Shown: piece after piece, positions 9,756 to 59,442 of the stretch
How the letters are laid out: each line of letters opens with the position of its first letter
Position numbering within the stretch: position 1 is the stretch's first letter
From: Hybos culiciformis
Lineage: Eukaryota; Arthropoda; Insecta; Diptera; Hybotidae
Direction of reading: 5' to 3'
DNA length: 64,000 bases
Assembly (NCBI GenBank): GCA_964007475.1
Contig: OZ023273.1
Location: forward strand, 77,413,737-77,477,736
Program-made: the position numbers and the translations under genes
The notes under the pieces: model-generated
Databases searched by the model: none
What the model was told of the DNA's origin: nothing
What the model saw: the letters and a program-made list of their open reading frames with translations, nothing else

Positions 9756-9793
9756 ATAATTTTAAAAACAATTCACCTACATTTTTTATCCTA

Positions 9794-12115
9794 ATGCAAA
9801 GACCCAATTATTATAATCCAATTAAATTCATGATTGATACTGGTGCAGACATATCTGTCATCAAAGAACAATTCACAAATTCAATTGACATTAATAATAA
9901 TAGTACTTGCAAAATTACAGGAATAGGCAATAACGTACACGAATCTTTAGGCACACTACAAACACATTTTATTATTGAAAACAAAAAATGTTTTATAAAT
10001 CTACACTGTGTAGAAGATAAATTTCCAATCAAAACGGATGGAATCTTAGGCCGAGATTTCTTAATGAAATACTCCGCATTAATTAATTTTGAAACAAATG
10101 AATTATCACTTACGATAAGTGATGAGGTAATAAATATACCCATTAATTCTAATTGTATCAGTCAACTGGTGATACCAGCCAGAACTGAAATTATATGTCC
10201 TTTACATGTTCAGAGAACAGAAGAGACACTTGTCCTGAGTGAAGAAATAACACCAGGAATATTCATAGCCAACACGATTATAGCCAAAAATGGCATATCG
10301 AATGTAAAAATTTTAAATACTAATGATAAAACAATGATCATTAAAAATTATAAGCCTAAAACAGTACCTTTAAACAATTATAACATAGTGAATATTGAAA
10401 ATAACGATCACGATCGATTATTACATTTAGAACAAATATTAAGCATTAACCCAGACGACCCAAAAGCTCAAAATGAAACACTTAAAATTTGCAAACAATT
10501 CCAAGATATATTTTACTTACCAGGTGATTCATTAACGACTAATAATTTCTATAAACAAAATATTGCCTTAGAAAATAAAAACCCTATTTATATTAAAAAT
10601 TATAGATTACCAAATTCGCAATTAACAGAAATTAATGATCAAGTAGATAAATTATTGAAAGAAGACATTATTGAACACTCTTACAGTCCATATAACTCAC
10701 CTTTACTCTTAGTACCAAAGAAATCCTCTAATGACACCAAAAAATGGAGACTAGTAGTAGATTTCCGTCAACTAAACAAAAAAATTCAAAATGACAAATT
10801 TCCTTTGACCAAATTAGAAGACGTACTAGATAATTTAGGAAGAGCAAAATACTTTACCACATTAGATATGGTCAGTTCTTTTCACCAAATCGAATTAGAA
10901 AAAAATTCAAGACCTTGTACAGCATTTTCATCTAATAATGGACATTTTCAATTTAAAAGACTCCCATTTGGTTTAAAAATCTCTTCAAATAGTTTTCAGC
11001 GAATGTTAACAATTGCCTTATCAGGTTTAAATTCAGAATCATTTATTTATGTTGATGATATAATAATATTTGGATGTTCTATTAAACACCACAACGAAAA
11101 TTTAATAAAAGTATTTGAACGATTAAGAAAATATAATTTAAAGCTAAATCCAGAAAAATGTAGTTTCTTACAGAAAGAAGTAATTTATTTAGGCCATTTA
11201 ATAACTAATAAAGGCATAAAAACAGACCCAACTAAACTTTTTGCAGTAAAAAATTATCCACAACCCCAAAACGCTGATGAAATAAAACGTTTTGTAGCAT
11301 TCTGCAATTATTACAGAAAATTCATACCAAACTTTGCAGCTATAGCAAAACCTTTGAACGATCTAACAAAAAAGAAATCAATATTTAATTGGAATGAAAA
11401 TTGTACAAATGCATTTTTAAATTTAAAAAATAAATTAATTAACCCTCCCATTTTACAATATCCAGATTATTCCAAACCTTTTATAATCACAACAGACGCT
11501 TCACAATCCGCCTTCGGAGCAGTCTTATCTCAAGGAGAAATTGGACAAGATTTACCAATAAGCTATGCCAGTAAAACATTAAACTCTGCAGAACTTAACA
11601 AACCAATAATAGAAAAAGAATTGCTTTCTATTCACTGGGCGATCAATTTCTTTAGACCCTATGTATATGGCAGAAAATTCATCGTCGTAACAGATCACAG
11701 ACCTTTAGTAGGATTATTTACGCACAAAAACCCTTCATCTAAAATGACGCGTATTAGACTAGATCTCAGTGATTACGATTTTGATATAGTATACAAACAA
11801 GGAAAAATGAATACAAACGCAGACGCTTTATCAAGAATACATTTAAACTCCAACATTTTAAAATCTATGATCCCAATAACGCCAGAAAAAGATATTAACG
11901 TGATAACCAGACAAGTAACTAGGTCACTAGAACAAGCTAAAAACCCTATAAATAAAAACCTACACATTTGGCACAGTATCTCAATTAACGATATAAAAAG
12001 AATTCCGAAAGTAAACTTCATAGAAATTTCAACTGGTACAACAGAAATAACATTCAATAATAATTATAAAATATATTTTATAATAAAAAATGAAACTCTT
12101 ATTAGCTCAAAATAA
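9794..12115 (+). CDS. pol: Pol: protease, reverse transcriptase, RNase H
   Basis: 773 codons counted from ATG 9794, but the frame is open upstream to the slip site at 9692, so translation probably enters by -1 frameshift. Aspartic protease motif IDTGADISVI is at residues 14-23. The reverse transcriptase has VVDFRQLNKK, LPFGL and the catalytic YVDD at about 419-422. RNase H begins at TTDASQSAFGAVLSQ (about 565), followed by TDHRPL and ADALSRI. The frame closes at TAA 12113 after the tether region. All catalytic residues I can check are present. Integrase continues in another frame that overlaps by 26 bases. Confidence 0.95.
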   Translation: MQRPNYYNPIKFMIDTGADISVIKEQFTNSIDINNNSTCKITGIGNNVHESLGTLQTHFIIENKKCFINLHCVEDKFPIKTDGILGRDFLMKYSALINFETNELSLTISDEVINIPINSNCISQLVIPARTEIICPLHVQRTEETLVLSEEITPGIFIANTIIAKNGISNVKILNTNDKTMIIKNYKPKTVPLNNYNIVNIENNDHDRLLHLEQILSINPDDPKAQNETLKICKQFQDIFYLPGDSLTTNNFYKQNIALENKNPIYIKNYRLPNSQLTEINDQVDKLLKEDIIEHSYSPYNSPLLLVPKKSSNDTKKWRLVVDFRQLNKKIQNDKFPLTKLEDVLDNLGRAKYFTTLDMVSSFHQIELEKNSRPCTAFSSNNGHFQFKRLPFGLKISSNSFQRMLTIALSGLNSESFIYVDDIIIFGCSIKHHNENLIKVFERLRKYNLKLNPEKCSFLQKEVIYLGHLITNKGIKTDPTKLFAVKNYPQPQNADEIKRFVAFCNYYRKFIPNFAAIAKPLNDLTKKKSIFNWNENCTNAFLNLKNKLINPPILQYPDYSKPFIITTDASQSAFGAVLSQGEIGQDLPISYASKTLNSAELNKPIIEKELLSIHWAINFFRPYVYGRKFIVVTDHRPLVGLFTHKNPSSKMTRIRLDLSDYDFDIVYKQGKMNTNADALSRIHLNSNILKSMIPITPEKDINVITRQVTRSLEQAKNPINKNLHIWHSISINDIKRIPKVNFIEISTGTTEITFNNNYKIYFIIKNETLISSK

Positions 12116-13295
12116 AATTTTCACAGTCGCGATAAATAATAATGATACCTTATTTAACCACATTAACATTCAAGAATTTAAAAACATATTTAATCAACTA
12201 CAGGAAAAAGATAATTCGAAAAATAAATTAAAAATAATTTTATTCAAAGCTCCTATCGAAATAACAGATCAAAATTTAATAAAAAAATTAATAAAAGACA
12301 ATCATAGTAACAATATAAGTGGACACATCGGTGTTAGGAAAATGATAATAAAACTTAGACAAAAATACATATGGAAAAACATGCATAAAATGATTAAAAG
12401 TTACGTGAAAAATTGCAACGAATGTATTAAATCAAAACAAGTTAGAAACATTAAAGAACCATTACAAATTACTGACACTCCAAATAGACCTTTCGAAACC
12501 ATACAAGTCGATACAGTAGGCCCTTTAAAAATTTGTAATAATTATAGATATATACTCACAGTTCAATGCGAATTAACTAAATACATAGAAGCATTTCCTA
12601 TAGAAACTAAAGATGCTATTACGATAGCAAAAATTTTAACAGAAAATATCATATTAAGATATGGAAATATAAAAAATATCAAAACTGATTTAGGTACAGA
12701 ATTTGTAAACGAACTATTTATGAACATTTGTAAAACTTTTAATATTAATCACCAAAAATCAACACCTTATCACCATCAAACATTAGGTTCAGTAGAAAGA
12801 AATCACAGAGTACTAAACGAGTATTTTTTAACATGCAATCATAGCAACAATTGGGTTGAATTAATCCCATTTTTCTTATTTTCCTATAATACTACACCTC
12901 ATTCAGACACTCATTATGCGCCATTTGAATTAATTTTTGGAAACACACCTGAATTACCGACAAATATTACACTTAAAAATAATGAACCACTAAATTTCAT
13001 AAACTATGATAACTATTTAAACGAATTAAATTTAAAATTATCCTGTGCACTAAAAATAGCTAGAGAAGAACTAATTAAATATAAAATAGCTAGAAATGAA
13101 AAATACAATTTTAATATTAATCCTGCAAATTTGAAAGTAAATGATATGATAATGATAAAAAATTTTAATAGAAAGAAATTAGATTATCCTTTTCAAGGAC
13201 CTTATAGAATCGTCGAAAGAGACGGAGTAAATTCAATAATAGAAATAAATAATAAATTAAAGAAAATTCATAATAATAACTTAAAAAAGATATAG
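12090..13295 (+). CDS. Integrase region of pol
   Basis: 401 codons in the +1 frame relative to the preceding pol ORF. An HHCC zinc-binding N-terminus (HSNNISGHIG ... CNECIKSK) is followed by the catalytic core: first Asp in IQVDTVGPL, second in KTDLGTEFVNELF, Glu in GSVERNHRVL. A C-terminal chromodomain-like extension is not evident. It is probably made as part of one Pol polyprotein, so the frame change is either a recent 1-base indel or an unusual second frameshift. ATG 12090 is a formal start only. Confidence 0.9.
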   Translation: MKLLLAQNKIFTVAINNNDTLFNHINIQEFKNIFNQLQEKDNSKNKLKIILFKAPIEITDQNLIKKLIKDNHSNNISGHIGVRKMIIKLRQKYIWKNMHKMIKSYVKNCNECIKSKQVRNIKEPLQITDTPNRPFETIQVDTVGPLKICNNYRYILTVQCELTKYIEAFPIETKDAITIAKILTENIILRYGNIKNIKTDLGTEFVNELFMNICKTFNINHQKSTPYHHQTLGSVERNHRVLNEYFLTCNHSNNWVELIPFFLFSYNTTPHSDTHYAPFELIFGNTPELPTNITLKNNEPLNFINYDNYLNELNLKLSCALKIAREELIKYKIARNEKYNFNINPANLKVNDMIMIKNFNRKKLDYPFQGPYRIVERDGVNSIIEINNKLKKIHNNNLKKI

Positions 13296-26885: not shown

Positions 26886-27948
26886 TATAAACAAAAAAAT
26901 TATTTTCACTAAATAAAAAAATAATAATATAATTTTCCGTGTATTTTTATCGTATGTGTGTGAAAAATCAAAATTTGAAATATGATTTTTATTAAATAAA
27001 TCCTTAAGCTTTTTGTTAAATATTTTCTCACGAATTGAATAATGAATTTCACAATTTATGTCTATGAAAATGAAATCGTAATTTGAGCCTGTGATAAAAT
27101 TTGGATTCAGTAGGTATTTAAGGAGGAAAATTAAACTTTTTTGCTCAAAATTGAAGTTTAAATCAAACAGTGTAAGTCCTATAAAATATAGTGTGCTTAA
27201 AACTAAATAATTTGAAACTAAATAACTAAATAAACAACAAGAATTATTAAAATATAAAAATTTGGAAATAATTAAATTGAAAGCAGAAATTAATAAATTT
27301 GGAAAAATAAAACTTAGCCAAAACAAATTATTATATCTGTAAAAAGAAATTTAATTAAAAGAATTAACTCAAGCATATAAAAATTTCAAAATAATTAATT
27401 TGAAAGCTGAAATTAAAAAAAATAAAAGAAGTAACTAAAAAATTATTTATTATTTTATTTTACATTTATAATTTATATTTTTCGAGAAATAAAAAAAAAA
27501 ACGAAGAAAAATTTCAAACAAAACTTTATTTCAGGTGAAATATTTTAAAATGGTTTTTACATGTCAAATCTGTAATCAACAATTTACAATGAACAAAAAT
27601 CTTCTTCGCCAAGTTCGCACTTAACATACCGATGTTAATATGGAATCTTCAATTCAAAATAAGTATGTAGTTTGTCAGATTTGTGATGCGGAGTTTTCGA
27701 GGTCTGATGCGCTTAGCCGTCAAATTAATTTCCAGCATATTCAACCATCTAAAAAGGCGAAATATGGCAGTGATAATGTAGTTGTTGCTGATATTGAGAG
27801 TGACGATGATGATTCCATTAATAATATTGAAAGTGATGCTGATAAAATTGATAATGATGGTGATGAAAATTTAGATAATGCTGACAATGTTGCTGATATT
27901 GAGAGTGACGATGATGATTCCATTAATAATATTGAAAGTGATGCTGAT
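26886..27948 (+). mobile_element. Maverick/Polinton fragment A, left part
   Basis: 26980-27948 matches, in inverted orientation, the sequence from about 63000 to the window end (fragment B). It resumes at 43127 after the inserted mag-like element, as shown by the CTGAT duplication. Upstream of the zinc-finger ORF is a Lys/Leu coiled-coil-coding stretch with stops (around 27220-27440). The viral/transposon affiliation comes from the adenovirus-type protease fragments that flank the same gene at 43478 and 58340. Confidence 0.65.
27550..27948 (+). pseudogene. C2H2 zinc-finger N-terminus of a Maverick-encoded protein (broken)
   Basis: ATG 27550 begins MVFTCQICNQQF. Two C2H2 fingers are recognisable, but here each has lost a His (Gln in its place) and a TAA stop lies in the first linker. 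The ORF reopens at 27640 with the second finger and an acidic region built of repeats of DIESDDDDSINNIESDAD. The retrotransposon interrupts it at 27948. The intact-looking fingers are in fragment B (63144-63393). Family members carry this region at the N-terminus of large DNA-polymerase-B-type proteins; that link is inference from family knowledge, as no polymerase motif is present. Confidence 0.6.
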
Positions 27949-28087
27949 TGTGATAAAAGTATAATAAGTTTAGTTATCTAATATGACATTTGACATTTAT
28001 GTATCTGCAAGGCCGGTGTTTACCTTAATATTAGAGTGCAGTAATCTGCCAAGGTCTGTTTATACTGATCATAGCGTATATGTAACA
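27949..28087 (-). repeat. 3' LTR of the mag-like element
   Basis: 139 bases, nearly identical to 42983-43126; differs by an ATA-scale indel and a few substitutions. Includes GCAAGGCCGGTGTTTACC. Confidence 0.88.
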
Positions 28088-28540
28088 TGCCATATTTTTT
28101 TTTTTTTTTTTTTACATTATATTGTATATGTGTATTTAATACACCTTTTTTTTTTTTTTATTTACATATTTAGGTTCTTCTTAATTCATTTAGAACCTTT
28201 TACTTCTTATTTTATTTTCTTTATTCTGTACTTTTAGGTTTTTTACATATGCTTTAAAACCTTTTAATTCTTATCTTTATTTTTATTTATTTTTATATTT
28301 ATTATTTTTTTTTTTTTTACATATATTTTAGAATCTTTTAATTCTTATCGTTATTGTTATATTATTATTTTGTACTTGTAGGTTTTTTACATCTATTTTA
28401 AAACCTTTAAATTCTTATTGTTATTTCATTGCATTTATGTATATCTAAGTACCAAAATCAAAATATTTTGGTTAATTTATTGAGCCTTGCAGATATCCTA
28501 TATATAAAAATAAAATATATAAAAACAAAATACAACAAAA
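28088..28540 (-). other. 3' untranslated region of the mag-like element
   Basis: T-rich on the + strand, with three diverged tandem copies (about 90-100 bp) of a unit containing AGGTTTTTTACAT and AACCTTTTAATTCTTAT. No ORF. Confidence 0.55.
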
Positions 28541-30066
28541 TTAGTTCAAATAATAATCTTCCAAATATGTTGGTTGTCTTGTGTTTCTTTTTGGGCGATT
28601 TGACGTGTGTTGATTGTCATTGTTGTTTCTGTGAGCATTATTTTCTTCATGAGGTTCATGGATTTTACGGTTCTCGTCTGGTTCATTTGATATGTTGTCC
28701 ATATTATTACTTTCGGAGAATTCCTGGTTATATGAGTCAGTTGGATCATTTATATGAATAGTTTGTGGAGTGGCAGTTGGATTTTGATTATCAAGATTTG
28801 TGCTTGGTGTAATTTCAAATGACTCCTCATTGTTTTGCTGTACATTTTGATGACTAGTTTCATTTTCATTGAATATTAAATCTTCCGGAATCTCTCTGAT
28901 GTGTTGTCGGTTACGGATGTACTTTTTATCGTTTATAATTATTTCGTATGATCTTTCTGATAATTTTTTAATTATTTTACCAAATGAATTTTTCTTGTCT
29001 GTTGGCCTTAGTTTTGTAACAATATTTGCACCAATATCTAGATCTTTTAATTGTTTTGAATGCTGGTCATAGTGTTGCTTACTTTTTAATCTTCTCTTTT
29101 CGATTTTTGATCTTACATCAGTTGGTATTTTAGGAAATAATTGGTTGTCATTTCTCGGAATGGCTGATCTTGTGTTCCTTATCATAAAACGTTCGGCAGG
29201 GCTGTAGCTCGTTTCATTTGGAGTATTTCTTTGTTCTCGTAATGCTTTATAAAGGCATTGATTTTAGTCTTCACATTTTTTTATCAATTTTTTAATAACT
29301 TTTACAGCTGATTCAGCCTTTCCATTGCCTTGTGGATAATATGGCGATGAATTTATATAATTAAAATTCCATTCTTCGGCAAATGTAAGGAATTTTTGTG
29401 CACCATCAGTAATCACTGTTTTTGGCACCCCTTTTCTCGCGAACAATATTTTACACGCCAGAATGATTTCTTCAGCTATGGTTGATTTCATCATATTTAT
29501 TTCTATGAAATCTGAAAAATGATCAAAATGGTAAGTATATTTCTAATTTTACCTTTATATTCGATTTCACAAAAGTCCATTGATATTCTCCGATATGGAT
29601 ACGCTGGGATATTATGTGATAACATTGGTAACTTTTGTTGCATATCTGTATATCTCAAACAAGTTATGCATCTTTTTATCATATTCTTGATATCATTTGT
29701 CATACCTGGCCAAAAAATCGTTCTTCTGCCTTTTTCTAGACATGCTTGGATTCCACTGTGCCCGTAGTGTAGTGTTTCTAAATACTTCTTTTGTATTGAT
29801 CTTGGTATAATAAATCTTTCGTCTTTAAACAACATATCATCTTGAATTGATAACTGTTTCTTGCACGATTTATAATTATTTATTTCACTTAAATCATCAG
29901 GCAACATGTCTGTCCAGTTTGGTTGAATATATTTTTTCACTTTTTGTAAGATCGGATCTTCTTTTGTTTTCTCTTTTATTTCGTCTATTTGTCTATCATC
30001 AATTTCTTCGTTATCCGCAATATTTATTTTTTCAATTTTGTTCAAATAGTTCTCCCAATATACCAC
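28541..30066 (-). pseudogene. Integrase region of the mag-like element
   Basis: Read on the minus strand: an N-terminal zinc region (HYGHSGIQACLEKGRR, CITCLRY) at 30066-29503, the first catalytic Asp in SMDFCEIEY, the second in VITDGAQKF and the Glu in GNGKAESAVKVI (29494-29264), then a C-terminal region ending at 28541 with a Pro/Asn-rich hydrophilic tail. One base is missing at about 29510 (frame change) and a TAA interrupts at 29264, so no full protein is made. The ORF is cut off upstream at about 30066 by the foreign segment. Confidence 0.85.
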
Positions 30067-30417
30067 GAGTCAGTTATTTGTCTAGTTCATCGGAAATAAA
30101 AAACATCATTTGTTAACTAACTTAGTATACTAATGATATGAACACGTTAGCCACAAGGATATATAAAAAGTACGACATGGATCGTATATAGGAGCTAGTT
30201 ATTTGTAACCGTAAATTACGACTGAACGTTAGGTATACGACAAGCATTAATGTAAAGAATATAGCTGACGTAGCCGTTAGTTATGAAACTAACATATAAG
30301 TCAGAATTAAAACTGTCCCCAGGATCAGTTATCAGGCTGACTACTAAGCTAGTTGTAAATCTTACTTAAATGTCACTTATATGATGGACATCGAAGGACA
30401 ATTCTATGACTGCCGTC

Positions 30418-30646
30418 GATGTTAATTGTAAAACATACTTTAATGTAAGCTAACCATTTTTGTCCTCTTAAGGAGGATCTATTCAGAATATTTTTAGTTT
30501 TCCGAAAATATCTCGAAAACAGCGCGTTTTTTACGCATCGTTTTCGAGATATTTGCGAAAAACTAAAAATATTCTGAATAAGCCTTCCTTTTAGGAGGAC
30601 AAAAATGGTGAGCTTACATTAAAGTATATTTTACAATTAACATTAA
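30418..30646. repeat. Fold-back MITE, about 230 bp
   Basis: TTAATTGTAAAACATACTTT at 30420 is mirrored by AAAGTATATTTTACAATTAA near 30620. Inner arms include ATTCAGAATATTTTTAGTTT and TTTTCGAGATATTT. The centre is near 30527. No ORF. Confidence 0.8.
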
Positions 30647-32317
30647 TATCAATTAACAGAATGGTCAGCTCATTTAATGGTAACTTTGCTAAAAAAAAAA
30701 CTGTTGTAACCAAAATTGCAAAAATAAGAATCAGATACAGTTAATGTTGAATTACTATTTATTATTTAACATAGAAATAATAAAAACAAACAAATTAACA
30801 TAAATTCTCTTATAAAAATTAAAGTTACAATTAACAAGTATCGTAAATTAAATAAAACGGATTAGCAATTATTTTGCTCCCAATTTTCAAAAAAAATTTG
30901 TGTTTTAATAACACAAGTAAGTGCATGTACGCATATTTATTTTTAACCTTATAATGGAAACTTAATAATACATTATTACATACTCAATCAACTGACTTGT
31001 TCATTAAAGTTAAAATAAATAAATCGTGCAACGTCGGCGTCGTCAAAGATAATTAGGACATTCTAAGATGTAGTTATTAATGTAGGTTAATGTAGTTCAG
31101 TTTGTTAGTTAAAAGCATATTAACAAGTTTATAATTTATTCGAGGGTCAATAACTCTGAATCTTTTATATCGAGCTCTAATTTATTCAAAATATTTACTA
31201 TTTAATTGAATAATATTTGATGACATTTGAGTCCTGAATTGAAAATACCTACATATCTACTATAATGTTCCATTTTTTTTCTAAACTCATGTTAAGATAA
31301 AAAGTTAAATAAAAACACTTAATAAAAAAATTTTTACTTAAAGAAAAATTTTGTTCCGTGTTGATATGATAGCAACATAATAAGCTGACAATTTATAATT
31401 TCCTTCACCAGTTTCACGTCTCAATATAGGCAGCAAATCAGAAAAAATATAGCAATTTGTATATGAGGCTGTAAATATCAATTCTGTTGATATCATAAAA
31501 AATGATCCAGCAATATCTTGAACTGTCACTTGATTGAAACCCATTACTGTTGAATACATTACAGCTAAAGTTACTGACGTTATCATGAATATTCCAAATG
31601 CTGTAAATTCTTTTTTGAAATTTCGACGACTTTCTACAGCTGATCTCGATATTAATAATATCACTTGATAAAACCATGATATTTTTCGACTGAAATGTAA
31701 ATCATATTATTACCTACGTACAAGAAGTATACACAAAAATATTTTTTTTAAATTTTTGATTATTCAATGAGGACTTAAATTTATCTGATAGACACCTATA
31801 GTTGTTAACATTTTTATAAACCATTTTCTGAAAAGCAAGTTATTAAAATCATTCTTATACAGCTGTATAGTGTTTTGATATAGTATTAACATTTACATTC
31901 TGGTGCGTTTATACTGGTTTATATAAATGTTTACCTTAGTGAATTATTCTTATACCTATTACTTTAACGTTTCAACTTACATAGCATAAATTTGATTCAA
32001 ACTATCACTTTCCAATTGTTGCCATTCAATAGTTCTTGTGTCTATCTCTTGTTGGAAATTATTTTTTATAATATCAGCAAATTTTGTACAATCTCCATTC
32101 AAACCATTTGATATCAATTTTAAGTAAAAATATGCAGGATTACAATTCCTGGGACAATAATAACCAAGTCTGCAATTTGAAGAAAATTATTTGATCAATA
32201 TTCACACATACTTAGTTGAAAACTTTAAAAGATATATAAATACGATTATCACGAATTTCAATAGGAAACTTAAATTTCTCCAATTTCCTGCTACTTATTT
32301 GTACTAATATGTATTAT

Positions 32318-32561
32318 TGTAATGCCCCCTTATCATTATGTACATAATACTATATACATTGTATATTATAAGCTCTCTCTCTCTTATTATTATTATTCGT
32401 TAAGTTATCATAGTATTAGTTAATAAGAAAGTATAAGACATGTCTAGGTACTTAGTTTTAAGTCAGTTTATAATCACTTCTTAAATAGTAATCATATAAT
32501 AAATAAGTCTGAAGTTTAACCACCTGTTGTTTTTATTAAAAGATACCCTAGTGGTATCACA
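32318..32561 (+). repeat. Left LTR (element in brown intron)
   Basis: 244 bases, TG...CA, includes a CTCTCTCTCTTATTATTATT tract. Confidence 0.92.
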
Positions 32562-32576
32562 TGGCGACCGTGACAG
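32562..32576 (+). promoter_or_regulatory. Primer-binding site, tRNA-Arg type
   Basis: TGGCGACCGTGACAG follows the LTR directly. Its complement CTGTCACGGTCG-CCA fits the acceptor/T-stem end of an insect tRNA-Arg. Confidence 0.75.
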
Positions 32577-32755
32577 CTGCCATTTAGGCAGGCTGAAATT
32601 TTTTTTTAGTTTGAAAAAGTTATTAAAAGTGACTATAAAATTATAAAATTATTTTATTTTATGGAATTCTTTATAAAAATTCTAAATAAAATAAAACTAT
32701 AAAAAATATAAAAAAAAAAAAAAAGAAAAATTTGAAAAAAAAAATTAACTTGATA

Positions 32756-33091
32756 TTAGAGAAATAAATTTCTACAAAAAAAAAAAAAAAAAAAAAAAAA
32801 AGACAAAAAAAAAATATAAGAAAAATTGGAATTATTTATCAAAATTATATTTTTTAAATTGAAATTTGTATCGATTGATGAAATTTTTATTAGTGAAATA
32901 TCTGCCTCAGTATCGACTAGAAATGTTGAGCCTTGAAAATTTAATTTAGAATTTAGAATAATGAAATCAGAGAAATTTGGATTTACGTTAAAAACATTTT
33001 TTGTAGATACTTTAGATTTATTATATAAATTTGGATAATAATTAGTAGAATTTTTATTTTCTTTTGAAGAATTTGTAAGAAAGCGTAGCAT
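32756..33091 (-). pseudogene. Protease fragment, inverted part of the LTR element
   Basis: The minus-strand ORF contains GSTFLVDTEADISLIKI. This is a retroviral-type aspartic protease motif with Glu in place of Gly (DTE for DTG), so it is inactive. It continues the gag orientation, opposite to the LTR polarity. Confidence 0.65.
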
Positions 33092-33211
33092 TTGGTCTTA
33101 AGTTAGAATTATAAAAAAATTTTGTTTTATTCGAATTTGAATGAGAGTTAATACTAGGATAAGTGAAATGTGTATTAAAAGCGTTAGTATTTAATTTTGA
33201 TGTACACGCAG

Positions 33212-33998
33212 TTAATCTTGTTCCCCCTGGCCGTTTTGGGGGGCCTGGTCGTTTCCCGCGTATCGTACGTAGTTATTTTGATTGAAATTTCTATTCGCTT
33301 GAGGAAATGCTCGTGGATTTGCATTATTAAAGTTCCCACGATTACCACCAAAGTTTCCTCGATTATTATTAAAATTTCTGCGATTATTATTGAAATTACC
33401 TCGGTTATTGGACAAATTATTTCTATAATTATTGTTTTGAAAATTGTTATTTAGAAAATTTTGATTTTGTTGTCTGAAATTTCCCCTATTATGATTTCCA
33501 CGGAAATTGTTATTGGAACGATTTCCATAAGAATTTCTAAACGAATTATTATTATTTTTTGTTCTAAACGACAGAACCTGTTTTTCTTGTGATTGTAAAT
33601 CTATTTCTATTAAAAATTTTGAGACTACTTCTCTAGGATCTTGAAATTGGGTCGATGATAAAACGGCTTTGGTCAGATCAGATCTTGCATTATTTCTGCA
33701 CATTTCAACTGTTTTTTCTATACAAATTTCTTTAGCTTTCTGTGTTGGTATACCTTCTAAGACAAGTGAACGACGAAAAGCTTCAGCCAATTCATTAGCT
33801 TTTTCCGAAAAATTTTGTAATGTGTTCCTATCCGTTCTCAAAGCTTTTATTTTTCCCTCTATAATTTTCGAACTTTCTGGTCTTATTGAATTATTAAGAT
33901 CTTGTTTAATAAGTTCTACAGTATTAGAAGTATCATCTATCGATTCGCGAGCTGTACCATCAAGTTTTGATAAAATAAAAGTAGCTAATAAATGTTTT
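33212..33998 (-). pseudogene. Gag fragment, inverted part of the LTR element
   Basis: The minus-strand ORF at 33841-33212 encodes a capsid-like helical part (residues 1-90) and a long Asn/Arg/Phe/Gly tail (NNRGNFNNNRRNF repeats). Upstream coding continues to about 33998, with one frame break, before the inverted duplication. The tail style resembles the Gag of the element at 8448 but the sequences differ. Confidence 0.7.
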
Positions 33999-34158
33999 AA
34001 GTCTTGTGTTTCCGCTAGTCTGTCTAATAAATTTATTAGCTACTTTTATTTTATCAAAACTTGATGGTACAGCTCGCGAATCGATAGATGATACTTCTAA
34101 TACTGTAGAACTTATTAAACAAGATCTTAATAATTCAATAAGACCAGAAAATTCGAAA
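33867..34158. repeat. Inverted duplication marking the inversion breakpoint
   Basis: 33867-33993 reappears as its reverse complement at 34031-34158 (ACCATCAAGTTTTGATAAAA; TCGATTCGCGAGCTGTACC), with a loop of about 37 bases. It is the same piece of gag on both strands, a signature of template switching during reverse transcription. Confidence 0.85.
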
Positions 34159-34179
34159 AAAAAATAATGAAAAAAAAAA

Positions 34180-34380
34180 GAAACGTAAATTTTTCTTGGA
34201 CACAAGAGTGTCAAAAAGCTTTTGAAATGAAAAAAAAAATTTAATTAATCCTCCAATTTTGAATTATCCAAACTTCTCAAAACCTTTTATCATTACTGTT
34301 GACGCTTCTAACTCGGGAATAGGATCCACCCTAAGTCAGGAGATCAATGGCAACGATTTCAAATTTCTTATTATTCACAT

Positions 34381-34420
<40 letters not shown>

Positions 34421-35040
34421 AAAAAATCACAAAATAATAAATTCAACGAAATAGCAACATTCCAAATAGAAAAAAAAAAATTTTTTTTTAGATAAAAATG
34501 AAAAATTATAATTTAAGAAGATAATAAAATTTTATTACAAAATACCTTAACTAATCTTTAATTCAATTGATAGTGGTAAAATATACAAAAAAAACGTTAT
34601 TACTATACAAAAACGAAATTTCAAATATTTACCAGACATTAGAGCCTGGATGTAGTAAAATTCAAAAAAAAAAAAAGAGACAATTCTAGCATTGTTTCTC
34701 GCTCAACTAGAAAAAAAAAAAACTTAACTAAAGTAAACATTTATAAAATTCAAATAAATAAAGATGATATTTTTAAAATATTTAATAAGAAAAAGTTTAT
34801 TAACATTGCAAAAAAAAAATATAAAGAATTACAAATCGCGATAGTTTCACGTACATTACCCATTATTAGTACTGGGGAAAAATTAAAAAATAAAGAGATT
34901 CATGATAAAAAATCAACGAAAAATCAGTTCAAAATAAATGATAAAGTTCTTTTAAAAAAAGAAAACAGAACAAAATTAGATAATGTATATGCTGGATTGA
35001 GGTCCACAAGAATAGAAAAATTAAAACAAATTGTTAAATT
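34180..35040 (+). pseudogene. RNase H and integrase C-terminal remnants
   Basis: 34180-34330 reads NFSWTQECQKAFEMKK and, after a frame break, PPILNYPNFSKPFIITVDAS: the connection and start of RNase H with its first catalytic Asp. At about 34930-35000 NDKVLLKKENRTKLDNVYAG is the C-terminal part of a gypsy integrase. Everything between is A-rich and broken, including a run of more than 30 A at about 34386. Confidence 0.65.
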
Positions 35041-35110
35041 CAAAAAAAAAAAACAATAATAATGGTACCATATTATTAGTTGTTTATTACCTTATTATTA
35101 GCATATCATT

Positions 35111-35366
35111 ATTATTACATATTAGTACATATTATTACATATTATTACATATTATTACATATTATTACATGTTATTACATATTATCACATATTATTACAT
35201 ATTATTACATATTATTACATATTATTACATATTATTACATATTATTACATGTTATTACATATTATTACATATTATTACATATTATTACATATTATTACAT
35301 ATTATTACATATTATTACATATTATTACATATTATTACATATTATTACATATTATTACATTTTATT
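35111..35366. repeat. Decanucleotide array (ATTATTACAT)n
   Basis: About 25 head-to-tail units of a 10-base repeat with a few variants (TTAGTACAT, GTTATTACAT). The Tyr/Ile/Leu/His ORFs across it are artefacts of the repeat. It lies just before the polypurine tract of the LTR element. Confidence 0.95.
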
Positions 35367-35473
35367 ACATTTTAAATTAAAAATTTTTATCTTCTTAAAT
35401 TAAATTTCTTAATTAAACTTATTTTTAAAACATAATAATGTTCTTATTGTATTTCTCAAATAAGTTTAATTCT

Positions 35474-35739
35474 AAAAGGAGGGAGGTGTAATGCCCCCTT
35501 ATCATTATGTACATAATACTATATACATTGTATATTATAAGCTCTCTCTCTCTTATTATTATTATTCGTTAAGTTATCATAGTATTAGTTAATAACAAAG
35601 TATAAGACATGTCTAGGTACTTAGTTTTAAGTCAGTTTATAATCACTTCTTAAATAGTAATCATATAATAAATAAGTCTGAAGTTTAACCACCTGTTGTT
35701 TTTATTAAAAGATACCCTAGTGGGCCTAGTGGTATCACA
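35474..35739 (+). repeat. Polypurine tract and right LTR (element in brown intron)
   Basis: AAAAGGAGGGAGG at 35474-35486 precedes the LTR 35487-35739 (253 bases). The LTR has the 9-bp addition GTGGGCCTA-type duplication near its 3' end relative to the left copy. Confidence 0.9.
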
Positions 35740-36239
35740 TTATAATAATTATGTAAACTTACTTAGAAAAAAATAATACTGCATCGTCTGTACTTCCTTG
35801 ATAAATAATTCTTCCGTTTTCCATTAAAATTATGTGTGTAAACAATTCAAAAACTTCTGATGTTGGTTGATGAATGGAACACAAAATTTCTTTTGGAAAC
35901 AGTCTACGACAATCATCTAAACTAAACATTGACATCGACCAATCACTATCATCGTCTCCTTTATCACTTAATATTTCCATTTCAAAATTTTCAGAATCCA
36001 AGAAACTGCTTGTCGATGTCTTTGGTAATTTTTTATATGGTTGAGTGAAATGTCGTAAAATTTTTATCACAGAATATGCATTATAGCTTTCTAATCCTGT
36101 TGTCGGCTCATCACAAAACATAAATGGTGGATCCGTAATGAGCTTAGTTAATTGATAAAATGAAAAAAATTTAAAATTCATAGTTCAATAAAAGATGCAA
36201 AAATGAATAAATATAAAAGATTCCTTAAAATAATAAGAT

Positions 36240-36515
36240 CGATCCATACATCCACTTTTTTAAATAGGCTTTTCGGGTCCAACGCTACAACATTTTATCG
36301 GAATATACCTAAATTTCAAAACCGGCTTCTAAGGTAGCCCCCCCGCCGGGGCCTCGGATCAAAATTTCTAGCACCCTCCTATAACCATCTCGGGCCCCAA
36401 TGATACTTAAGTTCAAAATTTCAGCCAAATCGGTCCAGCGGTTTAGGCGTGATTGAGAACAGAGGACAGAGGACAGAGGACAAAGAAACAGAGAATTTTT
36501 ATTTTTATTTATTAG
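36240..36515 (-). mobile_element. Helitron-like 5' end or related repetitive tail
   Basis: On the minus strand, TCTAATAAATAAAAATAAAA follows an A, then come repeats of TGTCCTC and ACCGCTGGACCGATTTGGCT with a GC-rich tail. A 5' TC after A, followed by 'aaccgctggaccgatttggct', is a layout known from insect Helitrons, though the last phrase is also found in other non-autonomous elements. It lies exactly between the DPP8/9 and brown fragments. No 3' CTRR end identified. Confidence 0.4.
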
Positions 36516-36563
36516 ATAAAAAATTATATAATAAAATTTTTTTTTATCAAAATTGTTCATTAC

Positions 36564-38852
36564 CTTATTAAAGTCAATTGAATACGAATAACTCAGCAGC
36601 CTTAAGTACCCGGGCCGTTGCAAACTAACAACGTATAAATGTTTCTCTAGAGGTGTTTCTTTTAATCCCAAGAAATAAACTAACTGTCGTGGTTTGTCAA
36701 CCCAAATTTATTTTCCTAAAACTTCCCAATCGCCAGATGTAAGGGCCACCTAAAAATAAAATTTAAAAATTCAATCTATATATTATCCATTGGTGAAATG
36801 GCGACATACCTTATTTCTAATTTGAGGAACTAAAGATAAGTCAATATTTTCAATATTTTCATTGTTTTTCAGTAAATTACTAATCATTTTGCATCCATTC
36901 AAAAATATATTACTATTACTTATATTTAAACTTGATGTTATTAGATACAAATGTCTGAAAGCTGTTTCCTCAGAAGCCCAAATAAACGTACATGATTTTT
37001 CCGAAATATCTAAAAAAAACTAATGAATCATGAACATTAATCCAAGAGTCTGAAGTTTGTGAATAAATAACCTGAAAACAAAATTGATTAAAATCTTTAG
37101 AAAAAATTCATATAATGATATTTTGTATTAACTTGTAATGGACTTATGACATTGTTATATTTCCAGCATTGTTGTTGTTCATCTGATCTTGATGGTGATG
37201 ACGGTAAACTATTGCCATACGTTTCACAAAAATTATCTAATGGTACCAATACTAAATCTAAACGTTGCTGTTTACGATTCTTTGCTTGAATCCAAACACT
37301 GCAATGAAAAAGAATACACAAATTATTTTGAAGTTATTTTGAAGAAAATTTGTTTGTACTTATTAGAATCAGGTGTCCATCCTATTCTAACTATATATTC
37401 TAGCCAAGGAAATACTGCTGACAATGAATATGGTAAATCTTTTATACATATGTCTGTGATTTGTAGTGATTCATTCATTTGAAATTGAACCAATTTTAAT
37501 TTTGATTTAGCGTTTGCTGTTCCCGCTCTAGGAAAACGATATTCATCATATTCACCAACAGATATGTAAATAAACAAACATCTGATTCATCAACTTCTTT
37601 ATAAACAATTCGATAAATACCGTCTGATTAATGAAAAATGTTTTAAATTATAAAATATATATATGTATGCAAATATTTTAAAATATATTTTTATTACATG
37701 TTTCGTAAATATTTATACAAAAACATGGAAGCTAGTCAAATTTCCGAATTCGTAATATAACCTCTAACGGTTTTTTTTTGATTTTATTATTTCTTCATTT
37801 AATGTACGGAAATTATTATGTATAAAACTTATAACAACAATAATCTGACAAATACAAGAATACAATTTCATTGGTAAAACAAAGAAAATGTTTATTACTT
37901 ATGTCGCCACCAAAATCCTTGATAACGACTGAATTCTTCTTGCATAACATAAGACGGAACACCTGCGCTTAATGGATCATCGGTCGGGGGAATTCTGGGG
38001 GCAAATTTGTGGATCTAAAGCAGCCAAATTAGGACAAACACGTAATTGAGTTGGAAATAGTGGCACTGGCTGAAAAATGTATTTACAAAAAAAAATTAGA
38101 TGAAAAAGTAAGTAATATTTTTAATACGATTAGGTAATTAGATTACATTGTAACCGGTATCTAAGCATTGATATAAATTACTAGAAGCTGGAAACACAAT
38201 TTTGCCACTTGGATCATGAATTTCATATGATGTTATGCCCCAATTTGATAAACGCTTTCGTTCCAAAAGTAATTGAATTTCCCTAGAATACGAACTGTTG
38301 GTTGTCAAATTTGGAATCGACGGTTCTAATACTAAATTCCATTGCAATCTAAAAAAAAAAAAAAAAATATTTCGTAGGAGTATACCTAATTTATTTTTTT
38401 TTTGTTAAATTAACTCCCAAGATGGTCTCAGGTTAAAAATTAAATGTTCGAAAAATTAGGTAGTACCTAGATAGTTATGTTATTGTGTATCCATACTTAT
38501 AATATTCTTACCTTTTATCAGGTTAGGGCTCATTTGGATGAATGTCTGTATAAAGTAGAGTTGTTTCCCAACCATTCGGTGGCGTACTTAAAAAGTAAAT
38601 TCGAACTCTGCCATCAGAAATTGTACGAAAATTAACATTCATTGGAACCATACTTGTTAAATTCGATAATTGCTTTCGAAGGTCGTTCACGATTGTTTTT
38701 AATTCTGACCATGATTTTTTTTTATTTTCTAAATTTATGGCAGACGCTGAGAAAGATAAATTGGTGTTACTGCTACTGGGAGGATGATGAACTACAGAGT
38801 GCTGTTGAATTTGTTGATATCTACGACTTTGGTTCGCCGTCGCACTGTCCAT
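36564..38852 (-). pseudogene. DPP8/9-type dipeptidyl peptidase fragment, seven exons, no catalytic domain
   Basis: Exons (minus): 38852-38512, 38348-38147, 38069-37899, 37623-37360, 37298-37133, 37071-36810, 36749-36564, mostly with GT-AG borders. They cover the N-terminal and beta-propeller part of a cytosolic prolyl dipeptidase of the DPP8/DPP9 family: SWSELKTIV, YSREIQLLLERKRL, GVPSYVMQEEFSRYQGFWW, YRFPRAGTANAKSKL, EYIVRIGWTPD, FRHLYLITS, SGDWEVLG, ETPLEKHLYVVS. The alpha/beta-hydrolase domain with the Ser-Asp-His triad is absent. Breaks: TAA at 38523, a frame change with an internal deletion near 37983, a frame change near 37580, an 8-T run near 37010 that shifts frame, and TAA at 36708. 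Introns are kept, so it came by DNA, not from mRNA. Confidence 0.8.
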
Positions 38853-39189
38853 AATTTTCTATAGAGAGGTAAAAACTTTCTTATTTGTATTGTTAAAATA
38901 AAATTATAAACATTTTTTGTTTTTTTTTTCTTTTTTTTTTTTACGTCAATTTTTTTCGATTTTCTTATTTTTCTGAAAAAAAAAATTTTTTTAACTTTCG
39001 TTTCAAAAATCAATTTTTTTCACATTTAATTTCAATCAATTTTAAAATTTGTTTTTTCTTATAACACTTTTATCGAAATTTTAATTTTTTATTTTTATTT
39101 TTTTTTTCTTTTATTTTTTGAAAATAAACATATCGTCAAATTATTTTCCTTTTCCTTGCAGCGGCAAACAATAACAAATACTTCTGGCG

Positions 39190-39345
39190 GTGTTACCAGA
39201 AAACTTTGAGGGCCCTATCTCCGAAACGGGGCCTTTGCCCCAAGAACTGATTGCAGTTTTGAGAGTTTGGGAACCGCCTCTACCCCCCCTCCAAGTTTCA
39301 GCCCATTCTGAGGGGTTCAAGGAAACTGTAGTTACGCACGCCGAC
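39190..39345. repeat. GC-rich dispersed repeat, short copy
   Basis: Shares TCTCCGAAACGGGGCCTTT and ACCGCCTCTACCCCCC with the block at 6120-6890. It lies upstream of the DPP8/9 fragment inside the foreign segment. Confidence 0.6.
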
Positions 39346-39554
39346 CTCCCCAAACAACGAATTCCCGGAAATTCTTCAAAATACGGCTCTTACTGTTTAT
39401 CTAAAAAAAAATGAAATAAAATATAAATAAAAAAAAATAAACTTACCTTTTTTGTTATTTTTTATTTATTTTACTTTATTGTTATTTAAATTTTTTCCAT
39501 CACGTGCTTGTTTTTCAAAATATAATAAATTATAAATGTCAACTTATCAACAAA

Positions 39555-39740
39555 GTCAACAAAGCAACAAATAATTGACGCTGTTGTCAGCTTTACGTAA
39601 ACTGGCGCTTATGTACGCCTTGCAATTTTCTTTGAATTACCAACATATAATAAAGCAATTTATAGTAGTTATTTGTACAAAAATAACTCATGCTGCTGTC
39701 AGCTTTACGTAAACTGACATTTATGTACAACCAGTAACCG
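39555..39740. repeat. Tandem duplication, about 112 bp
   Basis: GTCAGCTTTACGTAAACTG occurs at about 39589 and 39701, each within a wider similar context (ACAAATAA/ACAAAAATAACT before, CTTATGTAC/TTTATGTAC after). Subterminal to the right end of the foreign segment. Confidence 0.7.
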
Positions 39741-40016
39741 TTTGAAGGGAAAGATTACCGTAATTAGTCGCTTACACTCAAAAATAAGATAGACTGCAAG
39801 GTCAAATATTTGTTTCGACTTAGAACATAGTTCAATATCCGACACAAAAGTCGGTAATTTAAATTGGTCTTTTCAGCTGACCTTAAAACTGGCGGCCGGG
39901 ACAAACTCCTGTTTATTGGTGTTCAGGTTAGTTTCAAAACTAACAAACAAGTCGGAGGCATATTTTAAGCCGGTGTGCCAAAAATATGTTAACTATGAGT
40001 GAACTTGTAGGCCGGT

Positions 40017-41415
40017 TCAGTAATCGACGCCCATGCCAGTACAAATACTTGACATTTCTTTGCGAACTGGCGCGATGGTATATTGGGTCTGCATTATGAT
40101 TTCATTTTCATTTAACGTTTGTTCATTATCTTTTAATGGAGATCTCGATAATAAATCTGCAATTACGATTTTCTTTCCTGGACAATATCTGATTTTCAAG
40201 TCATATTTTTGTAGTTTTAGTCTTAAACGTTGAACCCGTGTTGTGTATTTATATATTGGTTTTTTGAATATTTGTTTCAACGTAATATGATCATAATATG
40301 ATTATATTATCTTTTCCACAAATAAACTGGTTTAGTCTCATACAAGCGAATACAATTGCTAGTAGTTCTATGTCACATTGTGAGTAATTTTTCTCAGTGT
40401 TTGTAAGTGCTTTGCTGATAAACATCACCGGTTGTCCTTCTTGTAACATTACAGCACCCAATCCCTTTCTTGAACCATCGGTCTGAATCACTACTTCTTG
40501 ATTCACATTGTAATATTTTAATATTGGAGCCTTACAAATCATTTCCTTAATATTTTCAAAACATTCATTTTGCCGCTTTGCCCATTGAAAGCTTTTAGCT
40601 TTGATGATCTCACGTAGCTGTTCAGAAATCTTGGATATGTTTGGTAGATACATTGACAAATAGGTAATCATCCCGAGGAACTTTTGTGTATCTTTTATAT
40701 TTTCAGGTGGATTCATTTTTAATATTGCCTTTGTTTTTTCGTCGTCAACAGTAATGCTTTTCGTTGTTAGCTTATGACCGTAAAACTTCACCTCTTGAAC
40801 TGCTAGTTTCATTTTGTCTTTATTTAGTTTCATGTTTGATTTCCTACATTTTTCCATCACATTCTTTAAATTTTGATTGTGGTCTTTAAAAGCCATATCT
40901 TCATTTGGACCTTTGCCTATTATTAAAATGTCATCTGCGACGCATTCAATTCCTTTCAACCCTTGCAATATTTCTAATTGTTTTTGTTGGTATATATCAC
41001 CTGACGCGTTAATTCCAAACGGTAATACTTTGAATCTATATCTGTTGAATGGTGTCCAAAATGTAGTAATATCACGACTACTCTCTTCTAGTGGTACTTG
41101 CCAATATCCATTTTTTGCGTCTAGTACGGAAAATATTTTTGCTTCTTCAAGCTCAGGCAATATCTCTTCGATTGTTATAGTTTGCATTGTAGGTCTCTTT
41201 ATTGCGATATTTGGGAACTGAGGGTCTAAACATATTCTAATTTTGTTTTTGTCTTTTTTGTTAACTATGACAATGTTTGACACCCATTCTGTCGGATGTG
41301 TCACTTTTTCAATGATTCCCCTTCCTTCTAAATGATCAAGTTCTTCTTTTAATAATTTTCTTACTGTTATTGGTATTCTTCGCGGTTTTTCTTGAACTGA
41401 TATTACATTTTCATC
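40017..41415 (-). pseudogene. Reverse transcriptase-RNase H of the mag-like element
   Basis: Minus-strand ORF 41304-40291 holds RT motifs ICLDPQFPN, FSVLDAKNGYWQVPL, LPFGINASGD and the catalytic CVADDILII, then RNase H with VIQTDGSRKGLGAVML and YSQCDIELLAIVFA. A frame change at about 40285 leads to a second ORF to 40017 (YTTRVQRLRLKLQKYDLKI, VIADLLSRS), the end of RNase H. Another break at about 41405 separates it from gag-protease. The last codons before 40017 run into foreign sequence. Confidence 0.88.
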
Positions 41416-42657
41416 TAATTCGATATTCTACCATCACCTTCAAATATGTTACTATGTTCATGTATAATTTTATTTAGTTCTTCTATGTTTGTTAATTTCT
41501 GAACATTATTTACTAAGCTTTCTTTATAAACTTGTATCAATTTCATAACCTGGCACGCGTTTGATGATAATAACGGTTCAAGATTTCTATTAACCACCTG
41601 AAATAATACTTTTCTGACTTTTTTATTAATGTCAGTTTTGCATTCAATAATTGTTTCGGCAATGACATCTGTCATTTCGCCATTAAAAGCCTTTAATTTT
41701 ATGTTACTTTTCCGGAAATTAGGTTGTTTGTTTATTTTTTTCAAGTTTTCACTACCAATTACGCAACATGACGCACCAGTGTCCCAGCACGTAATCACTT
41801 TCTTGAAATGGTTTTCTTCATCTTTCATGTATATATTGCCACGTAGTATTTTACCTGCATTCTGTACTACCCCGATTTGTTCTATAGTTTTAATAACATC
41901 TTCGCTGCTTTCGCTTTCGTCACTTTCGTCTATTTTTCTTATTTGTTTATCTGATGTTTCTTTTGCTTTCTTCTTCTTTTGTTGGTCATAATCTGTTTTT
42001 GGGCAGCAGCTTCCGAAGTGATTTTCTTCATTGCACTTTTTACATGATTTGCCCCATGCTGCACTTAGCTCTTTTTTAAATAGGTGTTTTTTGTTACAGA
42101 ACTTACATGTTTTCAAATCTTTTTTTGACATTCGTGTTTTATCAATTTTGTTTATGTGTTCTTCAGTTACTCCAGCAGCTGGTTTCATGTTGGCCAGTTC
42201 AATGTTGTGCATCTCATGCATTTTCGCGATAGATATTGTTTTTGTAAGAGTTATATCTTCATCTTCGTTTTCCAATAATTCATCTCTTAATTTTTCTTTA
42301 TGTAATCCGAATATAAACTGATTACATACCATTTTGTTCTCTAAATTCTCGAACTTACACAATTTTGCCATTTTCCACAACCTATTCACATATGTATCTA
42401 TTGATTCATTTTGTGTTATTGACAGACTGTTTTTCTTGTGCAGTGAAGTTTTCCATGAACTGATTGTAAATTGTAAGCCCTTCTGCATCCAAACACGACT
42501 CTAAATACCCTTTTTGGACTGCGAAAGTTTTTTCACCTAGTGCTTTGATGGTACAATAATTTTGCCACTGTTGTTTGAAAATTTTGAAATTGTGCATGTT
42601 AATGGTGTCCCCATCTTTTTCATTTAACTTCCACCGATTCGGACAATTTTCACTCAT
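41415..42657 (-). pseudogene. Gag and protease of the mag-like element
   Basis: Gag starts at ATG 42657 (MSENCPNRWKLNEKDGDTIN) and shifts frame at about 42420-42480 into the ORF ending at 41415. That ORF has a complete CCHC knuckle (CKKCNEENHFGSCC) preceded by a second, degenerate one (CKFCNKKH), an acidic Ser-rich linker (DESDESESSED), and the aspartic protease motif CWDTGASCCVIG. The zinc knuckle contrasts with the knuckle-less Gag at 8448. Confidence 0.85.
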
Positions 42658-42982
42658 TTTAAATTTTATCCTAAAAATAAAATTATTTAATTTATAAATG
42701 TTACCCTAACACCAATTTTATTCTTTTTTCTCGATGAGATGATCAGATCAGTCTCATTAGCCACACTTTCTGATGCAATCTCTGATTATTCAATTTCGCC
42801 ACAATCATCCAGTTCGATTTCACCAAAATTATTTATCAGACGCTCGCAATTTATTTCAGATTGATCCCAGATGGATTTTCTATTAATTTTGTGCTGTATT
42901 TTAAACTATACACGCACGATGCTTCAGATTTTTCTAGATTTTTTTTTTTTTTTTTAATTTTTCAGGATCACACCTGACACCA
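42658..42982 (-). other. 5' leader of the mag-like element with primer-binding site
   Basis: On the minus strand TGGTGTCAGGTGTGATCC directly follows the LTR (42982-42965) and is the likely primer site; the donor tRNA is not assigned. The rest is leader sequence up to the gag ATG. Confidence 0.6.
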
Positions 42983-43126
42983 TGTGATAAAAGTATAATA
43001 AGTTTATTTATTTAATATGACATTTGACATTTATGTATCTGCAAGGCCGGTGTTTACCTTAATATAATATTAGAGTGCAGTAATCTTCCAAGGTCTGTTT
43101 ATACTGATCATAGCGTATATGTAACA
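42983..43126 (-). repeat. 5' LTR of the mag-like element
   Basis: 144 bases, matches 27949-28087. Flanked by the CTGAT duplication at 43127. Confidence 0.88.
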
Positions 43127-43446
43127 CTGATAAAATTGATAATGATGGTGATGAAAATTTAGATAATGCTGACAATATTGGTAATGATCCCGGTACATCT
43201 CAGGGCGGTTTTTCAACAAGTAAGCAGTTAGATTTAGGAAAAACTAATTTTTGTGATACTTATAAGGTTAGTTATGTAAGTTGGCCATCGCATATTAGGA
43301 AAACTTCCCACAAAAATTTGACGTGTAGTAATATTGAAAATATTGAGAATCTATCCAAAATTTCTCATTGCTTTAAATCTCGAATCAGCTCATTTTTTAA
43401 AAGCTTTAAAAAGTATGTTTCAGATAATAAATATCGTCCTAAATAA
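43127..43446 (+). pseudogene. Maverick fragment A: downstream part of the zinc-finger protein
   Basis: It continues the acidic region interrupted at 27948 (KIDNDGDENLDNADNIGNDP), then STSKQLDLGKTNFCDTYK and a Cys/His-bearing segment to PSHIRKTSHKNLTCSN. It ends at a TAA after SDNKYRPK (43446), where an internal deletion has fused it to the protease region. The same fusion junction is seen in fragment B, so the deletion predates the copies. Confidence 0.6.
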
Positions 43447-59310: not shown

Positions 59311-59442
59311 TCATTTACACAAAAAAGTCGAGATGCCAACATGCCTGCAAAATCTATTGTACCTCTCGATGTCGTGAGCGTAGAGTTCTTAAGTACATAA
59401 CATCCAACGTTCAATAAGTATTTAACTTAAATTTACACTTTT

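Follow-up and report, generated by a model that had tools for sequence, protein, structure and literature searches.

Gene fragments of brown and DPP8/9 in a multicopy, probably CACTA/Mirage-like, gene-carrying transposon family of the fly Hybos culiciformis

The window analyzed here, a stretch of 64,000 nucleotides (nt) from Hybos culiciformis (assembly GCA_964007475.1, contig OZ023273.1, positions 77,413,737-77,477,736, forward strand), holds a long terminal repeat (LTR) retrotransposon that is split by an insert carrying intron-containing pieces of two host genes, brown and DPP8/9. This insert and its relatives elsewhere in the genome are the subject of the present work. The split retrotransposon, which we take to be mag-like after the name given in an earlier sequence-only reading, is bounded by LTRs at 27949-28087 and 42983-43126 and flanked on each side by CTGAT; the two LTRs are separated by one 5-bp indel and by three substitutions over 139 bases. 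Its reverse transcriptase (RT)/RNase H (40291-41427) and integrase zinc-binding domain (29503-30069) lie on the minus strand and were recognized by Pfam. Open reading frames (ORFs) and Pfam matches thus agree with the earlier statement that RNase H and integrase of one LTR element stand about 10 kb apart, and the LTRs and CTGAT duplication were found outside them as described. A zinc-finger-like repeat surrounding this retrotransposon occurs twice in the window (27015-28087 plus 42983-43396, and 62759-63928); by match coordinates, the second copy is uninterrupted at the corresponding point and represents an empty site.

All ten exons recognized in the insert, three of brown and seven of DPP8/9, lie on the minus strand (Table 1). 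The DPP8/9 exons match DPP9 in the PDB (E 1.4e-69), and the brown exon at 35763..36142 matches ABCG transporters there (E 7e-11), reaching just E 0.18 in Pfam. The remaining two brown exons returned no Pfam family, and their assignment, by reading frames, splice sites and general family features, is presumptive. The exon inventory of the sequence-only reading, on one strand and with introns, therefore holds for DPP8/9 and, by PDB evidence, for one of the three brown exons. Although the splice phases would agree with a functional fusion of DPP8/9 and brown, such a gene is rejected for this copy because DPP8/9 contains two stops, two frameshifts, and deletions. The brown intron houses a nested LTR element whose repeats differ by one substitution and a 9-bp indel. 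The order of insertion at the locus is the mag-like element, then the gene-carrying transposon, then this LTR element. Within the nested element there is also an inverted repeat at 33844-34180, whose arms measure 156 nt, as well as a gag-like ORF.

Genome searches (contigs of the searched genome, G000, are labeled C1, C2, C3, and C499) revealed that the DPP8/9 cargo is continuous with C1 at about 43.875-43.878 Mb on the minus strand, with segments 95-98% identical over exons, introns and 5′ flank alike, and with deletions of about 77 and 102 bp relative to that presumed source, both in exon 3. The brown cargo has a 97% match at C2:15091293-15092111, which leaves out the first 29 bases of the query, and a 99% match at C1:84913758-84914615, the latter inside a sibling element designated L042; all three candidates of this search were scored, the window among them. 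Since the native-like matches of DPP8/9 and brown fall on C1 and C2, the two cargoes correspond to different chromosomes, and these matches are presumed from sequence to be the native copies. A more diverged DPP8/9-like stretch (75-90%) at C2:53744587-53745337 is perhaps an old paralogue or an older capture.

The boundaries of the insert were defined by its termini and by comparison with uninterrupted sites. Both ends carry a 12-bp perfect inverted repeat, CCCAATATACCA, and the likeness continues with mismatches for about 22 bp. Inverted 12-base matches with at least four G/C arose in 54 of 20,000 draws of two random 200-base stretches of the window, so the repeat alone is only suggestive and the remaining evidence is decisive. 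A search with the retrotransposon flank (three of three candidates scored, again including the window) identified two other places in the genome where the flank runs uninterrupted, with a single TCT where the window reads TCT-insert-TCT. The empty site that had been proposed as a check is represented by these two copies of the flank. The earlier bounds, 30066 and 40016, are to be corrected to 30054 and 40087, the former pair lying just inside the true ends. The subterminal motifs named in that reading were confirmed: GTTAGTT..AAACTAAC is present at both ends, and AGTTATTTGT occurs three times in 64 kb, every time within the insert ends, against about 0.3 expected per strand.

Table 1. Features of the insert and its surroundings (window coordinates; TIR, terminal inverted repeat).
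Feature	Position	Strand	Basis
Whole element, read as a Pack-type TIR transposon, 10,034 bp	30054..40087	minus (by cargo strand)	inverted CCCAATATACCA ends; two empty paralogous sites
Target site duplication TCT, left	30051..30053		duplication comparison, empty sites
Target site duplication TCT, right	40088..40090		duplication comparison, empty sites
Family left end	30054..30823		common to all 20 compared copies to at least 30790
Palindromic stretch within left end	30419-30643		
Family right end, about 690 bp	39399..40087		
Extra right-hand sequence	39069..39398		in some lineages only
Captured DPP8/9 segment, introns and 5′ flank	36505..39162	minus	genome match, C1
DPP8/9 exon 1, premature stop	38512..38852	minus	PDB, splice sites
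DPP8/9 exon 2	38147..38348	minus	PDB, splice sites
DPP8/9 exon 3, deletions relative to presumed native copy	37899..38069	minus	PDB, genome alignment
DPP8/9 exon 4, frameshift	37360..37623	minus	PDB, splice sites
DPP8/9 exon 5	37133..37298	minus	PDB, splice sites
DPP8/9 exon 6, frameshift	36810..37071	minus	PDB, splice sites
DPP8/9 exon 7, premature stop	36564..36749	minus	PDB, splice sites
Repeat between brown and DPP8/9 cargo	36248..36493		92% copy outside element, L013
brown (ABCG) exon, Walker B region	35763..36142	minus	PDB
Later nested LTR retrotransposon in brown intron	32318..35735	minus	237-bp repeats, 99.6% alike
brown exon (presumptive)	31981..32169	minus	frame, splice sites, family features
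brown exon (presumptive), cut at capture breakpoint near 31369	31369..31689	minus	frame, splice site, family features
Host LTR retrotransposon, split by transposon	27949..43126	minus	LTRs, ORFs, Pfam

The same ends recur throughout the genome. Searches scored the best candidates only, and copy counts are accordingly lower bounds: the left end matched at full length in all 40 places scored (the best 40 of 161 candidates), and the right end matched at 99-100% in all 40 scored of 146. Twenty further copies were taken from the left end onwards (L009-L028, with L041 as an extension of L022), giving 22 examined copies when the window copy and L042 are counted. Both ends are present in 20 of these, all carrying CCCAATATACCA at either end with at most one mismatch allowed on the right. 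Matching 3-bp target duplications flank 19 of the 20 two-ended copies (18 of the 19 first compared, plus L042), with sequences that include TCT, AAC, AGA, CAT, and GTT. Relative to L017, the left ends of the window copy and 13 others show 0-3.2% substitutions, gaps aside, while the interiors are mostly unrelated between lineages at the DNA level. The extra right-hand sequence is present from 39069 in L014, L018, L025, and L042, and from 39199 additionally in L013, L016, L019, and L028. That the segment forms one unit bounded by ends of its own is upheld by the inverted repeats, the TCT duplication, the empty sites, and this recurrence; the proposed genome search with both ends yielded many copies with different cargo. 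The ends are not unique, and the cargo matches DNA elsewhere on C1 and on C2.

Several lineages hold the same cargo at different sites. Five such pairs show 0 or 1 substitution in 5.2-8.0 kb: L014/L018 (6.3 kb), L017/L021 (8.0 kb), and L026/L027 (6.8 kb) are identical, L013/L028 show a single base difference, and L011/L012 a single base difference plus one gap. The flanking duplications differ in three of these five pairs; L014 and L018 both have ATA, and L017 has none that match. Wider comparisons gave 9 bases plus 168 gap columns for L014/L025 and 21 plus 193 for L020/L026. With the kinase cargo of L020, all 21 candidates were scored and gave 22 matches, each at 100%; two rows seem to be one place, which leaves about 21 places, and at 17 the match is full length. 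By coordinate comparison, 18 lie within about 2.3 kb of a listed right end, which together with L020's own makes 19. For the two others, C1:107357190 and C2:51583569, the scored list contains no right end; either of them may be the native kinase gene. The RUN/RBD cargo of L024 was found in five places, four of them 3,807 bases inside known left ends; the fifth, C3:15218956, shows no known end and could represent the native gene. Native copies have probably been identified for three cargoes.

Other copies share edges around different middles. L042 and the window copy agree at the left end, through brown as far as 32209, and again in everything from 38874 onwards, and between the equivalents of these positions it carries a tyrosine kinase where the window has DPP8/9. 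Because 38874-39162 aligns with the flank of the DPP8/9 source, this stretch in L042 resembles a remnant of older cargo, which favors the addition of DPP8/9 before the element landed at the window site. Likewise, over 3,355 bp L017 matches L020 at 99.97%, after which the two continue into unrelated genes. Such shared edges would fit an exchange of the middle by template switching. The presence of brown cargo in a second element with its own duplication indicates that at least a brown-bearing form was mobile.

The cargo consists of intron-containing pieces of different genes, with 13 host-gene fragments supported by Pfam or PDB, three of them weakly. Beyond the window, Pfam matches include EMP70 (L013), Med28 (L014), FHA and KIF1B (L015), a protein kinase (L020), and RUN with Rab-binding domains (RBD; L024). 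COR-A in L017 scored at the curated cut-off, MFS in L019 scored below it, and a hydrolase in L010 (E 0.0018) was also below cut-off. L016 carries Arf, L023 Pellino, and L042 the tyrosine kinase already mentioned. The cargo names brown, Wee1, SGSM, JAK, TM9SF, and ABHD17 are presumptive labels. In L009, the one ORF tried had no Pfam match. Domain scans covered the lineages other than L011, L012, L018, L021, and L025-L028, which share these interiors at the DNA level. All 13 supported fragments lie on the minus strand of the element; without the three weak ones the count is 10 of 10, with a chance of 0.002 for a fair coin and independent captures. A plus-frame control spanning the greater part of the interior in nine lineages (L013, L014, L015, L019, L020, L023, L024, the window copy, and L042; L009-L012, L016, L017/L021, and L022 were left out) returned no family at E ≤0.01. 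Most minus-strand matches came from hand-chosen ORFs, and the control covered three frames.

Certain modules recur alongside this cargo. A module with a glutamine-rich ORF that had no Pfam match is shared by L016, L017, L019, L020, and L022 (element positions of about 940-2360; about 6706-8165 in L022), which include the transposase-bearing copy and several gene-bearing ones. Apart from the stretch common to L017 and L020, a module is also shared by L015, L016, L017, L019, L020, and L022. The repeat between the brown and DPP8/9 cargo has 77-92% copies outside the element in L013 and a reversed 79% piece in L010.

One copy, L022/L041, measures 12.43 kb, has both ends and TTA/TTA duplications, and carries a 685-amino-acid (aa) minus-strand ORF, P0001. 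A genome search with P0001 gave 78 matches (65 of 198 candidates scored), in which near relatives are broken and distant ones numerous. Copies of the L017 type lack positions 986-6705 of L022, which correspond to the transposase region. Three decayed relatives of the transposase gene, 76-93% alike, stand in a row at C1:68464099-68478236. A neighboring second element is partly present next to L022/L041 (13060-13726 as oriented): its left end faces the opposite way, and after it comes a piece with 97.5% likeness to window positions 31084-31363.

TIR cut-and-paste transposons are recognized here by inverted repeats at the exact ends, target duplications, and empty sites, all of which were found. 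The features of a Pack-type element are likewise apparent from sequence, with host DNA between the ends, matches retained elsewhere, and multiple copies, some alike in cargo and others not. CACTA (En/Spm) elements have termini beginning CACTA or CAC and generate 2-3-bp duplications; the 3-bp duplication found here fits this group. Helitrons make no target duplication and have no inverted repeats, and this assignment, which had seemed possible from the ends, was ruled out by the presence of both. PIF/Harbinger elements produce a 3-bp TWA-type duplication and encode their own transposase; here the duplications vary, and the sole transposase-like ORF found is of another type. Gene capture by retrotransposons leaves intronless cargo devoid of transposon ends of its own, and transduction of that kind was ruled out by the kept introns, the insert's own ends, and the empty sites. 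P0001 has a weak match to DUF1258 (PF06869), the family of Mirage transposases, which are close to Transposase_21/CACTA and have RNase H-like active-site residues (PMC3985635); what was available of that source does not mention gene capture, whereas the family described here carries genes.

There is little doubt that a DNA transposon of the Pack type, gene-carrying and non-autonomous, makes up the insert; it probably belongs to the CACTA/Mirage/Chapaev group. The suggestion of a gene-carrying DNA transposon made in the sequence-only reading is borne out by the inverted repeats, the duplication, and the recurrence of the ends with different cargo. Its companion claim of capture inside a retrotransposon is not, for the empty sites with one TCT make the retrotransposon a landing site only; nor is an undescribed type supported, as inverted repeats, 3-bp duplications, and, in one copy, a DUF1258/Mirage-type transposase point to known DNA transposons.

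Some observations weigh against this interpretation. L017 lacks matching duplications (one of 20 copies), and in L009 and L010 the right end is absent from the stretch examined; a right end at C499:30264 would make L009 an 11.8-kb element. The match of P0001 to DUF1258 is weak (E 7.6e-5, 22.8 bits, cut-off 33.1), NCBIfam returned no match for three L022 ORFs, the single PDB match (E 0.61) is not credible, and a single-sequence structure prediction had a predicted local distance difference test (pLDDT) score of 35, its fold being uninformative. Among the scored matches there is one intact transposase gene of the family, tied to the other copies by shared ends alone. The termini begin with CCC in CCCAATATACCA instead of the CAC of CACTA, so the family is not filed as CACTA proper. 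All structures were read from the assembled sequence. Finally, the genome search revealed no second element with DPP8/9 cargo.

This last result also speaks for in-place gap filling, in which a small transposon sat in the retrotransposon and a break in it was repaired with brown and DPP8/9, so that the cargo never jumped. Gap filling is the usual origin proposed for single-copy animal Pack-TIRs (PMC8277862, in the parts available), and the sibling L042 demonstrates that interiors can be exchanged. Still, brown cargo also resides in another element, located elsewhere and flanked by a duplication of its own, and other lineages hold the same cargo at several sites, which renders this explanation unlikely. 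Aberrant excision of two neighboring elements, as modeled for Pack-CACTA in Arabidopsis (PMC13317346, in the portion available), concerns acquisition only and would take the place of template switching: a hybrid element would enclose the DNA between them. It belongs to the same broad transposon group, and a second element end does lie beside the transposase-bearing copy, though oppositely oriented. By itself it leaves unexplained the one-strand cargo, the match of brown and DPP8/9 to two chromosomes, and the abrupt divergence of L017 and L020 after 3,355 bp; it is a minority option.

An assembly chimera of unlinked contigs is very improbable given the exact ends with duplications in 19 of 20 copies, the exact empty sites, and the recurrence of these ends at every one of the 40 places scored in each of the two end searches. 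Capture by the mag-like retrotransposon, through read-through or template switching in reverse transcription, could be invoked because the cargo sits between its LTRs. The introns, the insert's own inverted repeats and duplication, and the two other flank copies, empty with a single TCT, reduce this to a barely conceivable origin.

For the Pack-type transposon, a sequence of events may be proposed. Template switching or gap repair within an element would bring in genes as DNA, step by step and with older cargo kept at the edges; in the sibling, brown would have been kept and most of DPP8/9 replaced by the tyrosine kinase, or the reverse. The finished element would then be amplified by transposition, with the L022 transposase acting in trans on all copies. 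The window copy entered the mag-like retrotransposon once the latter was in place and was itself interrupted later by another LTR element. A broader proposal, tentative and a little short of an even chance in our judgment, is that the family works as a directional collector, taking up kilobases of host genes always in the orientation of its own transposase gene, swapping the middle cargo, keeping earlier remnants, and amplifying the products very quickly. Direction could come from capture, by transcription-linked or strand-asymmetric template switching, or from the removal of antisense cargo that would silence the parent gene.

Plants offer ample documentation of gene capture by DNA transposons. 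In animals it appears rare, short, and mostly single-copy, according to the accessible part of one survey (PMC8277862). Animal Pack-TIRs described there resemble the present family in having host DNA between TIR ends, a parental copy that is kept, and a target duplication, and template switching has been proposed for them. Their captured pieces have a median of 224 bp in a search that limited internal sequence to 5 kb, and four cases (1.4%) are multicopy. In contrast, the cargo here spans several kilobases with introns, includes two genes in the window copy, and in one case recurs, nearly identical, at about 21 places, of which 19 lie within an element or next to a known end. As far as the available text goes, the survey found none in the insect reference genomes used and one family in fly populations (PMC8277862). 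Ssk-FB4 of Drosophila is likewise a multicopy gene-carrying animal TIR element with different duplications by site, but it is MULE-like, with 9-10-bp duplications and inverted repeats of about 700 bp (PMC8277862, same part).

Plant Pack-CACTA elements share the gene-bearing, non-autonomous nature and the CACTA-like group, judging from the consulted portion of PMC13317346; the family described here differs in its animal host, DUF1258/Mirage-type transposase, CCC termini, and recognized cargo that is all on one strand. Helitrons also carry host gene fragments (PMC6431247, available part). No description of the family was found in the open-licence literature searched, including the accessible portions of PMC8277862, PMC6431247, PMC13359780, PMC3985635, and PMC13317346. 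The best reading is therefore a Pack-type, CACTA/Mirage-like element that for an animal is unusually large, multicopy, and strand-uniform. With over 100 candidate copies, near-identical gene-bearing members, and a candidate transposase, the family would allow one to trace almost in real time how cargo is captured and exchanged and how its strand is chosen, and it would illustrate how exons from different chromosomes can come to be joined and dispersed in an animal genome.

Scans with Rfam at gathering scores and of IMG/VR with the inverted repeat and adjoining bases gave no match. Elsewhere in the window, translations suggest long gag-pol-like ORFs of an LTR element at 8415-13295 and endonuclease-RT-like ORFs of a non-LTR element at 59431-62166, and an open frame of 479 aa at 2027-3466 matches F-box and leucine-rich-repeat families.

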